In this document: positions 22,255 through 34,200 of the stretch, one piece after another
How positions within the stretch are numbered: position 1 is the stretch's first letter
How the letters are laid out: each line of letters starts with the position of its first letter
From: Cheilinus undulatus
Taxonomy: Eukaryota; Chordata; Actinopteri; Labriformes; Labridae
NCBI RefSeq assembly: GCF_018320785.1
Contig: NC_054875.1
Location: 2,981,001-3,045,000 of the forward strand
Length of the DNA stretch: 64,000 nt
Direction: 5' to 3'
Made by a program: the position numbers and the translations under genes
Notes under the pieces: generated by a model
The model's input: the letters and a program-made list of their open reading frames with translations, nothing else
What the model was told of the DNA's origin: nothing
The model's database searches: none

Positions 22255-25200
22255 TTAGGTTCCTGAAGAAGGCTCTACTCTCACTGTGGGTCCTCCATCA
22301 TGGCCACTGGTGGACTCCATCTGAGCTGCGACGCTCAGCTCAGGTTTGTCTCTCTGAGGCTGAGGGGGCGTTTGGGAGAGCGGGGTGGTGGCGTTGTCGC
22401 TGAGGCTCTGGACGGTCACTGAGGACTGCAGCAGAGAGGAACAATGATTACCCGTCTGGCAGCGCTGATTAGGAAGTTCAGGAAGGATAAAAACTGGACT
22501 CACATTTCCCACAGAGACGTCACTGCCGGCCACCGTCTTCTTCTTCCTGGCCATGTTTGGGTTCCAGTGACAGACCAGACTGTCGTTCTGCACGCTGTAG
22601 TTCTTATGACCAACCAGCCAGTAGGTGTTCATTTTACCTTTACCCTGCAGGAGAAACACAAGAGGAGAGAGGAAGAGAAACATCTAGTAATTCTGACTTC
22701 TGATCTCATAATCTACATTTTTATCTTATAATAATGACTTTTTATCTCATAATTTCAACCTTTTATCTTATGATTATAATTTTTATCTCATAATTTTGAC
22801 TTTTTATCTCATAATCTACATTTTTATCTTATAATAATGACTTTTTATCTCATAATTTAAACCTTTTATCTTATGATTATGATTTTTATCTCGTAATTTT
22901 GACTTTTTATCTCATAATTTGAACTTTTTATCTCATAATTATGCCTTTTATCTCGTAATTTCAACTTTTTTCTCTTAATAATGACTTTTTATCTCAGAAT
23001 ATCAACTTTTTATCTCATAATAATGAATAATTAACTCATAATTATGAATTTTATCCCATAATTTTGACTTTTATCTCGTAATTTTGACTTTTGATCTCAT
23101 AATAATGACTTTTGATCTCATAATTTCAACTTTTCATCTTGTACTATTGAATTTTCTAACTCATAATTATGAGTTTTATCCGATAATTTTGGCTTTTATC
23201 TTGTAATTTTGACTTTTGATCTCATAATAATGACTTTTATCTCATAATTTCAACTTTTTATCTCATAATTATGACTTTTATCTCAACATAATGACTTTTT
23301 ACCTCATATTTTGACTTTTTTATCTCATATTTTGAATTTTATGTTGTAATTTTGAATTTTGATCTCATAATAATGACTTTTATCTCATAATTTCAACTTT
23401 TTATCTCATAATTACAAATTTTTATCTCGAAATTAAGATTTTTATCTCAAAATAATGACTTTTAAACTCATAATTATGTCAATCTCATAATGTCGACTTT
23501 TAATCTCAAAATTATGATGTTTTTTCCTCAAAATTATGACTTTTATCTCATAATAATGACTTTTATATCTCTTTATTTTGATTTTTATCTCTTAATTTGG
23601 ACTTTTTTCATCTCATAATAACAATATTTCATTTTTATTTCATAATTATGACTCTTTAACACTGGGGTATGCTCACGAGTATTTTTATCTAAAGACAAGG
23701 CTTTAATATTTTCAGAACACTCACAATCAAACAGAAAATAAATGTGATGCCAGTGCTGAATCTCTTACCTTCACCTCGATCTCTCCACGGAGCTGCAGCT
23801 CGTAGGCGTTGTCTTTAATCAGAGCCAGGTAGGTTTCTGAACTGGCGTGGATTTTCTGAGCTGACACAGAAAATGAAAAGAACTTTAAATCCAAACTGAA
23901 GTCGTTCATATTGCTCATTTCCTTCTCGCTTCCTGCTCTGGTGATCAGCTGATTATGGGCGTGCACTCTCTGAAGTACTCAGCTAATCAGTGTTGTTTGT
24001 CCAATCATCATGCACCGTCAGATTCTAAATCTGTCCTCCTCTCTTTCACAGTCAGCCTGTGGTGTCAGTGTGGACGCTGCAACCCTCCTCCACCCCAGCC
24101 ACCTCCATTCAGTCCATCAGCATCTAGTCCAGATCCTCCAGGGTCTCCTGCTCATCTCATTCTGCATTCCTCAGTCTCCTCCAAGCCGCCTCGTTGGTGT
24201 CCCGGTGCAGCATCTGATCCTGCACCCCCTTTCACCACTACCAGTGTCTAGACTCCATAAAGAAGGTAATCTATTCCTGCTGTTCACCTCACCATCCCTT
24301 CAAGTACACGAAGCCATCACGACAGTCTAATCACTGAAGACTTTGTACATTTCTCTTATTTCAATTTGAGCTTGAGTGATAAAGATGTGCCATTACTTTC
24401 AAAAGTGGAGAGACAAGAAACAAACATTTATTCTAACATCCCCATCCTAAAATGACAAGAAAAGAGCTCAAATTTTCATCAAATTTCAGTGAATGAAACA
24501 GCCTTTCAAACACTTCAGTCTGACTCAGTCACTTTGAGGATTCGACATGATGAAAGTGTACGTACGCAGGCTGGTGGACTCCATCCTGGAGGCCGTGTTG
24601 ACCGTATCTCCAAACAGACAGTACCTGGGCATCTTGTAGCCCACGATTCCTGCCACACATGGACCTGCAGAGTAAAGACAGTCAATGCACTACTTCACAG
24701 GACCAGAGCTGCCTACCTGTATGTAATTATGAAAGCTTTGTCAGCACAAAATTTGCATCTTAGCAGGGCCGTTTCTTGCTATATGCGGACTGTGCAAATA
24801 CATGGGTCCCACAAGCTGCTATAGGGGGCCTAAAAGCTGAATGTTCTGCATCATCTGGGATAAATGCTAGTTAGCTGGCTAGGATCTGTGTGCTCATAAA
24901 CCCAGCTTGAGTGTTTGCTTCATGAAAGTTGGCTAATACAAAATAAACACCACATGTGAATGGACTATGCTGTGAAAACTTGCACTAGTAAATATCTTTT
25001 AAAAACAGTGAATATCTAGTTTATTTATTGACATAGTGAGGATTGTTGTTTTCCTTCTGTTATCATTTTTTTCAGTTATTTTGCTCGGGTGTCGCAGCCT
25101 TAGAAGTTTCATTTTGATATGAGAGGTTTTCATGGCTTGTAGCCTGTTTTTCTTGTGAAGTGTAACAGACTGTGGCATGTTCATGGATCATTTTATGGAT

Positions 25201-31200: not shown

Positions 31201-34200
31201 AAGGTTTAAAACACCAAGTTGAGATCTATTTTTTATTCCATTTATTCTGTGTTTGGAAACCAGCCTGTTGTCAGTCAAATTTCAACGCTGAGGTCTGTGT
31301 TGGTGCCGGCTGGGAAGGAAGACACAGTTTCTAAGTAAAGACTGCAGTGTTACTGGTTTTATTTCCCTCTATGCAGTTGATATTTGTTCATGTGCGCTAT
31401 AAAAAGCTGCTTTTCATAAATATATGCCTTATGTTTTGACAATACTGCATGCACAACTGAGATAAAGTCCCTGTAGCTGAGCACAGCCAGACGTTGACCA
31501 TATTCTCACAGTTTAGTGTGGACTGCTTTAACAAGAAATGCACGTGATTTGTGGTTGTAAATGTTTTTCTTTATAAACAGTTATTAATTTGAACTTATTG
31601 CTGTTATTTATATTTGCTGCCATGGCTGTTCTGGGATTCATTGCCCGTCTACGAGCCAATGTGGAAAGCATCATGCAGGAACAGCACGCGTTCCTGCCTT
31701 TCCTGTGTTTACCAGGAAATCCTGAGGCAGAGAAAGAAGCAGCAAAAAACCCCAGAGCAGAGCAGAGCAGGCAGCAGTGACAGCAGGATGTCTTTGACTG
31801 AGTCAAAAGCAGAATAAAGGAGGAGCTGGGGTGGAGGAGGGTTGCAAAGAGAGCCAGGCGAGAGCAGTTTAAATATGGCAGCATGAGTGCGATCAGCCAA
31901 TAGCATGTTTAGAGCAAATCAGCTGGCTGTCAGCTGATGAGGGCCTGCATAAGATCAGCTGATCTCAGATATATGACTCTGTGGTCTGCCTGATCTAATG
32001 CTCTGTTTGATTTTGGATATTCTGTAGACCAGTGTCACTCAATTCTGCTCAACCAAAGAGCCAAACTGTTGAAAAATATCTTTGCGAGAGCCACAATCTA
32101 AGTGGTGAAAAATGGCAATAAAAATAAGTTAAAGCTGGCAAAATAGGTGAAAAAGCTGGAAAAAAGTGGCCAAAAATGGGTAAACGGGGGTAAAATAGGC
32201 AGAAAATGGCAAAACTGGGTGAAAAGTGACAAAAAATGGCTTACAGGTGGCAATAATGGTAAAAAAGTAGCAGAAACTTGGCAAAAAAGAGTGAAAGTGA
32301 CTAAAATTGGCAAAAAGCAGAAAAAAGGTGGGGAAAATGGGTGAAAGTGACTAAAATTGGCAAAATGTGGCAAAAAGGTAGGGAAAATGGGTGAAAAATG
32401 ACTAAAATTGGCAAAAAGCAGAAAAAAGTGGGGTAAATGAATGAAAAGTAACTAAAATTGTCGAAAAGGTGGGGAAAATGAGTAAAAAGTGAATAATTTG
32501 GTAAAAGCAGCAAAAGGTGCTCTACAGCCACACGCTGGGTATCACTGCTCTAGACTCTCTGTGGTGGTTTCCTGGCTGATCTGCTGAGGGGTTCCTGGCA
32601 GGAAGCTCAAATGTTGAAATTTCAACCACACATTTCATGGCCTGTTAGAAACCATCAGAATGAAGCTAATTCAGCCATTTCTTTGTTGTTTAAGCTACAG
32701 GCGTGGTTAAATTAAAGCGACTGTTAGCCTATAAACAACGGCGGCCGGTGAAGACGTTAGTGTGGTCGCAGCTGTAGCAGCAGTTTGAGAACTGGAAACG
32801 TTTCTTTATTGTAAGAAGAGCAAAGAACCACTCTGGAAGCTTGTCTTGGTGGAAAAGATGTTTTTGCTCTTCTGACCGGCTTCAGTAAGAGTTAAATTTA
32901 CCAACTGGCTCCACTGATAGAGAGCAATGATAACAGCTGCCTGTCAAGTACACTCTATCCCTTTTGGTTCTAGAAACCTTAAACACCCACACCAACCTTG
33001 TCGTAGCTCTCAGCCTCCACATGTTTCCGCTGCCGGAGCTGTTTGGCGACTGATTTGGGCAGCATTTGGTGCAGCAGATCCTCAGCCAGCTGCCTCTGGC
33101 GCTTCAGGTCCTCCGTCTTCTCCTTCAGGGTGTGGGCGTAGTTCTGGATCCACTCGGTCATCTGCTTAAAGGAGAACATCACCACAGGGTAGATGAGGCA
33201 GGCTAAGGCCAGCAGGCAGACCCTCATACTGAGGCCTGAAGACACGGACCGAGACGCCAACCTGAGAGCCGGCACGGCTCGATCGAACAGGCAGCGCTCA
33301 GTGTTTTTCAGAGCTTTGACTCCGGTTTTAGAACCAGAAAGAATCTCTGGTGCTGCGTCAGAGATCTGCCAAAGACTTGAGTCCAAAATATACGAATGTT
33401 TTTCATGTGTGCTGGAGTTTAACTTGAGTTCTACGTTCTCCAACCAGCAGTCGTTCAGTCGCTCTGACATCACTCGAGCAAAGACGAGCAAGCTTAAAAC
33501 ATGAGTCCACTTTTCCTTGAAGTCACTTTGAGTTCCGGTGTGAGGGGAGTCCATTATCTGGTGGTTTAGCTCCCTGAATCTGACCAGAAGGCTTGCAGAC
33601 AGTACGTCTCTCCAGTTAGAACTCTGTTTGGCCTTGACGACGGTCTCTCCCAGCGTACCCCACGTATCCAGAAGTCTTTCAATGGTCAGGGAGAAAGCAG
33701 AAGTACCGTTCTCACTGGTGCTGTTTGCATCAGAGGAAGAATTCAGGAATCGCTGAACCCTGATCCAAATGTCCTCACAAAACCCAGCCAACTCAACACT
33801 GCAGGGAAGCCCGCGTCCGTTACTGTGGCCCGCCATTTCTGCACAGAATCGGCCAAAAACAGGAAGCACAACGTCTGAAAAACTTCCCTCCAGAGTCTCG
33901 TTGGTGATCAAACGTCTCATCTCTTGGAGCTTACTGACCAGTTGCAGGATGGCGATCGTTCTGCAGGAGGTCAGCTCGTCGTAGGCCGCTTCAGTGGTGT
34001 GAAGAAGGTCGAAGTTGGAGCTGAGGTCGATGGATACGGAGCCCAGGAGAGCCAGGAAAGAGAGGACGCAGGCTGTCAGAATCCGACGAACGGTGCGACC
34101 GCTACCGGACACGGAAAATATGGAACACCTGGAAGAAGAGGAGGAATAGAACTGGTTAAACAATGCAGGAGAGTCGGGGAAGTGTGCACTCATGAAAACA

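Follow-up and report, generated by a model that had tools for sequence, protein, structure and literature searches.

Within a 64,000-nucleotide stretch of the genome of the fish Cheilinus undulatus (contig NC_054875.1, positions 2,981,001 to 3,045,000; the whole stretch is referred to here as the window), the minus strand carries a gene whose seven exons, lying between 34128 and 22255 of the window, join into a single open frame of 647 residues. The encoded protein comprises, in order, a first transmembrane segment (TM1), a helical segment of about 230-265 residues, a second transmembrane segment (TM2), a signalling helix, a membrane-type cyclase domain and a tail. Analysis of the sequence supports the presence in a fish of a catalytically complete membrane guanylate cyclase with two transmembrane segments and no kinase-homology domain (KHD). 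The gene is unusual for a vertebrate.

Gene structure and protein architecture

Each of the seven exons is preceded by an AG acceptor and the first six are followed by a GT donor, the last ending in a stop codon. The exon that encodes the sensor is by itself open for 412 codons in a window of 40% G+C; it is bordered by ttcttccag/G on the acceptor side and GACAAG/gttggt on the donor side, and its third-codon-position G+C is highest in its own frame (0.64 vs 0.53 and 0.42). The final 56 residues of this exon alone match NPR1 786-841 (E 9e-4), and the exon that follows begins at NPR1 843 in the alignment with the PDB entry. When joined, the protein aligns with NPR1 786-1026 without gaps over 241 residues (1e-88), and the match reaches residue 561 of 647. 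Because of these matching ends and the gapless joined alignment, sensor and cyclase exons can be assigned to one gene, which is confirmed, at the level of sequence, as real and intact.

Residue numbers counted over these seven exons fall 48 below those of an earlier note on this DNA, which implies that one further, unlisted exon was used there. Between 34129 and 42000, only one candidate passed a filter for a first coding exon (ATG start, phase 2, 10 or more codons, and a donor scoring 5 or higher), namely 37191-37049 with the donor CAG/GTGAGA. Added to the seven exons, it yields 696 residues and matches the numbering of the earlier note exactly; the places that the note gives for the catalytic residues in the product hold. 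This exon lies outside the interval 34128-22255, the context of its start codon is weak and a second open frame overlaps it; exon and start codon remain unproven candidates.

Hydropathy (Kyte-Doolittle, over 19 residues, cut-off above 1.6) gives two membrane segments, beginning at residues 64 and 350 of the 696-residue product, in agreement with the earlier placement of TM1 and TM2. Five N-glycosylation sequons lie between them, and the segment that bears them may be glycosylated and extracellular. A single-sequence AlphaFold model is poor (predicted local distance difference test score, pLDDT, 43) but helical throughout, and it places eight helices between TM1 and TM2; together with the sequons, this fits the helical ectodomain that had been described. 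Pfam assigns residues 370-555 of the 647-residue protein to Guanylate_cyc (1e-70). The HNOBA family matches (1.5e-5) at profile positions 178-216 of 216 only, and these last 39 positions correspond to the signalling helix that the earlier note describes. The remaining Pfam row, Arb2, is below threshold (0.031); kinase, ANF-receptor and NIT families have no Pfam match in the 647-residue product, and an NCBIfam search of the protein assigned no family. The catalytic positions Asp432, Glu472, Asp476, Cys544, Asn551 and Arg555 are all present and identical to NPR1 in the alignment; we take them to be the metal-binding Asp pair, the guanine-selecting Glu and Cys, and the Asn and Arg. The earlier proposal of a catalytically competent cyclase in an HNOBA-containing architecture is upheld insofar as the catalytic residues appear complete, and its HNOBA part is reduced to the signalling helix.

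With a class III cyclase domain and its catalytic residues, the protein falls among the membrane (ANPR-type) guanylate cyclases. It lacks the combination of one transmembrane segment, ANF-receptor ectodomain and KHD that defines a canonical vertebrate receptor cyclase, and has the animal NIT-type layout of transmembrane segment, ectodomain, transmembrane segment, signalling helix and cyclase, with no KHD. Membership of the soluble guanylate cyclase class was considered and rejected: there is no match to the haem-binding HNOB domain, the transmembrane segments number two and the HNOBA match is confined to the tail of the profile.

Coding features of the cyclase gene, in coordinates of the window
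Feature	Coordinates	Strand	Basis
Candidate first coding exon, of 47 codons + 2 nt, encoding a short cytosolic N-terminus	37049..37191	-	sole filter-passing upstream candidate
Sensor exon: TM1 (64-81 of 696) and TM2 (350-368) with a NIT-like helical ectodomain and its five sequons between them, then the signalling helix	32997..34128	-	splice borders, hydropathy, NPR1 match
Cyclase exon 1: FFSDIVGF, metal-binding Asp432	27854..27988	-	splice borders and frame; PDB alignment with NPR1
Cyclase exon 2: VETIGDAY, Glu472 and Asp476	26258..26432	-	splice borders and frame; acceptor-like AG comparison
Cyclase exon 3: Cys544, Asn551, Arg555	24566..24664	-	splice borders and frame; acceptor-like AG comparison
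Cyclase exon 4	23769..23860	-	splice borders and frame; Pfam Guanylate_cyc
Last part of the cyclase domain, first part of the C-terminal tail	22504..22644	-	splice borders and frame; NPR1 PDB match
Last coding exon: Ser/Pro-rich tail, stop codon	22255..22425	-	splice borders and frame

Several other features lie in and around the gene. The intron before the penultimate exon contains, at about 22700-23640, a long degenerate array of short A+T-rich ATTATGAGATAAAA-like repeats recognized by eye, and the intron between sensor and cyclase exons holds transposase-like pieces at 28741-30514 (+), presumably Tc1/mariner. The coding-like open frame at 37345-37127 (-), which overlaps the candidate first exon in another frame, is similar to TM1 plus helix 1 of the sensor exon. 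This resemblance was reached in 0 of 500 full shuffles, in 1 of 500 segment-wise shuffles and in 18 of 500 once the transmembrane part was left out, and a genome search with the frame gave other rows that were weak only (E 8 and above); it is possible that the frame is a relic of a tandem copy, or that the likeness arose by chance. Farther away, the window contains a DUF2152 protein at 62345-63259 (-) (1.9e-160), which we take to be KIAA2013, a Polyhomeotic SAM-associated region at 48672-49034 (+) (PHC2_SAM_assoc, 1.3e-8), and RCC1 repeats on separate exons at 6494-6721 and 8563-8796 (-) (1.1e-10 and 1.4e-12), presumably parts of RCC2.

Copy number and relatives of the cyclase domain

A search of the genome with the sensor exon returned the gene itself and one weak row in the signalling helix; no second sensor copy was found by this search, and the gene is apparently single-copy. 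Searching with the cyclase gave at least 104 exon-level matches in the genome. A scan of viral contigs turned up no relative, and a plasmid search with the bait sequence gave no match. For the tree, query-anchored rows from 20 loci, the query and two PDB entries made up 23, of which 21 were used and two short ones dropped; some rows include short intron read-through. The best tree places the query as sister to all KHD-type receptors with weak support (64/83), and the approximately unbiased (AU) test rejects its grouping with GC-C (0.004) and with loci that we assume to be retinal-type (0.005).

Intron positions were compared across the same genome. Of 12 other membrane-cyclase loci, 10 have an acceptor-like AG before VETIGD at the codon where the query has it, and all 12 examined have the following one, at cyclase exon 3, in the same place. 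The intron at the sensor/cyclase border occurs in none of the seven other loci that could be read in frame at this point; for C7, an eighth, the frame of the match was unclear. This C7 locus (L094) and C22 (L093) are a pair of receptor cyclases with KHD-like exons, as judged by eye, whose cyclases are 86% identical over 133 columns. In cyclase sequence both stand near the query, yet neither has the VETIGD intron. They were set aside as its closest relatives on account of the KHD-like exons and, in C7, a single transmembrane-like segment (by eye). Four loci considered as intronless relatives (L051, L052, L054 and L055) were also set aside, as we take them to be pieces of ADCY9.

Identity of the extracellular sensor

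The earlier note had called the sensor NIT-like, and three features are consistent with this. Helix 1 carries LVSKLQEMR, to be compared with the NIT signature LVHELQ.ERG, at the expected distance from TM1, and its score at that place was reached in 27 of 5000 shuffles. The length of the ectodomain and its predicted helix count (eight) are similar to NIT, and a model guided by NIT rows is compatible with the fold of NasR (PDB 4akk). Of eight columns invariant among 12 bacterial rows, the fish protein keeps three (Arg49, Leu56 and Asp75), in an alignment that is uncertain past helix 1.

Other results weigh against a NIT identity. The other five invariant columns are changed (His43, Glu48, Gly50, Arg115 and Arg176 in the first bacterial row), and the helix-1 score, for a motif noticed by eye before testing, was attained somewhere in the sequence by 363 of 5000 shuffles. 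The Pfam NIT profile (PF08376, curated cut-off 24.9 bits), which the earlier note had named as the check on its claim, gave no match to the protein at E<=10, although the filtering steps of HMMER discard the majority of hits with E beyond about 0.1; the ectodomain falls short of the cut-off. A custom hidden Markov model (HMM) profile of 27 bacterial NIT domains, which recovered five of five bacterial NIT proteins at 128-197 bits, gave the fish ectodomain 0.8 bits and found no stretch in it that scored positively; 3 of 200 shuffles did at least as well (best 3.4), and the whole sensor exon scored -0.4 bits, reached by 7 of 200. A forced global alignment had a z of 1.8, which was matched in 5 of 80 shuffles and, with block shuffling, in 5 of 40. 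Whole-domain recognition was unsuccessful by every route tried, namely Pfam, the custom HMM, and semi-global and global profile alignment. As to structure, the guidance of the NasR-compatible model is circular and speaks for compatibility only; in a Foldseek search with that model, 4akk ranks only 11th (E 0.54), and neither the guided nor the unguided model has a match at E<=0.001. For the unguided model, 4akk is not among the 50 entries of the VIA list, which excludes nothing, and a PF08376 search of the fish's own genome found no match, a result of little weight as the control was found in 0 of 14 genomes. What survives of the NIT-like label is the helix-1 signature, the length and the fold fit; recognition by profile and by global alignment does not. 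We consider the NIT identity of the ectodomain probable, but unproven because the sensor is too diverged for sequence to prove kinship.

On balance, we favor, with moderate confidence, the view that the fish gene belongs to the animal NIT-type guanylate cyclases, as a vertebrate member that has diverged strongly. The ectodomain could instead be a helical bundle unrelated to NIT, with an architecture that arose separately and a sensor class of its own; we regard this as a serious but rather unlikely alternative, since the helix-1 signature is at the expected place, the length, helix count and two flanking transmembrane segments fit NIT, and the animal NIT version described in PMC1592074 was itself detected only by PSI-BLAST.

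A different origin would make the gene a derived relative of natriuretic-peptide-type or C7/C22 KHD receptors that lost its ANF-type ectodomain and KHD. The cyclase is 71% identical to NPR1 (136 columns) and 70% to the C7 locus (133 columns), and the AU test keeps open a grouping with NPR (0.078) and with C7/C22 (0.55), as it does with the soluble group (0.27), which further weakens the case for NIT-type descent. Nevertheless, we judge this origin improbable: the best tree, albeit weakly, puts the query outside all KHD receptors, the sensor/cyclase intron is absent from every other locus read in frame, the VETIGD intron is missing from C7/C22, and a new TM1 and ectodomain would need to be gained. 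It is more doubtful still that this is a decaying or mis-joined gene whose exons fail to give one working protein. The uncertain first exon, the coding-like frame overlapping it and the repeats and transposon-like pieces seen by eye in the introns would fit such a history; however, the seven later exons are all open with AG/GT borders, third-position G+C peaks in the sensor exon's own frame, the sensor/cyclase junction runs without a gap against NPR1 and the catalytic residues are retained, leaving this explanation with very little probability.

Proposed function and comparison with known systems

From the architecture of the protein, and by analogy with animal NIT-cyclases, we propose that the fish protein acts as a homodimer-type membrane cyclase, with a short cytosolic N-terminus and a glycosylated, extracellular helical sensor between TM1 and TM2. 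A small extracellular ligand (nitrate, nitrite, and nitric oxide (NO) or its products are candidates) would bind between helical bundles; TM2 and the signalling helix would carry the resulting shift to the cyclase dimer and change its rate of cyclic GMP (cGMP) synthesis. The ligand, the loss in mammals and the undescribed pathway put forward in the earlier note are inferences. In its fullest form, the proposal is that vertebrates did not lose NIT-cyclases and that a membrane-bound sensor of extracellular nitrate, nitrite or an NO-derived ligand still works in one or more fish lineages. This sensor would produce cGMP alongside the soluble NO receptor, and its binding site would have been rebuilt around Arg119; we offer this whole proposal tentatively and with considerable doubt. 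In vertebrates, the NO-cGMP pathway is ascribed to soluble cyclases. If the proposal is true, the fish NIT-cyclase would give this signalling a second sensor branch, one bound to the membrane and testable in laboratory fish, and the dating of NIT-cyclase loss in other vertebrates would change.

Three known systems invite comparison. With the NIT domain of NasR (PDB 4akk), the fish sensor shares the LQxxR pattern of helix 1 and, in the NIT-guided model, compatibility of fold; NasR, however, is a bacterial transcription antiterminator, and where bacterial NIT domains have their second conserved Arg, the fish row has another residue. NPR1 (GC-A; PDB 9bcv) has the cyclase domain, the preceding helix and the catalytic residues in common with the fish protein. 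Receptors of the NPR1 type have a peptide-binding ectodomain, one transmembrane segment and a KHD, and metazoan membrane cyclases were described as single-transmembrane proteins in 2006 (PMC1435932); in contrast, the fish protein has two transmembrane segments and no KHD.

The animal NIT-cyclases resemble it in their layout: an extracellular helical sensor between two transmembrane segments, a signalling helix and a membrane-type cyclase, with no KHD (PMC7400543, PMC1592074, PMC10584369). They include a placozoan set, in a 2020 paper that describes NIT domains as lost in vertebrates (PMC7400543); a third class of animal cyclases, from insects and sea urchins, that combines a NIT version with a signalling helix (PMC1592074); and NIT-GC1 and NIT-GC2 of the annelid Platynereis, where such cyclases, according to an eLife Insight (PMC10584369), mediate the feedback of NO onto photoreceptors. 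Among the titles and beginnings of abstracts searched, with most subscription papers out of reach, there was no report of a vertebrate NIT-type cyclase. The fish gene differs from the animal NIT-cyclases in belonging to a vertebrate and in having a sensor that the NIT profile does not recognize. As this two-transmembrane architecture has already been described in animals, the novelty of the fish gene lies in its presence in a vertebrate.
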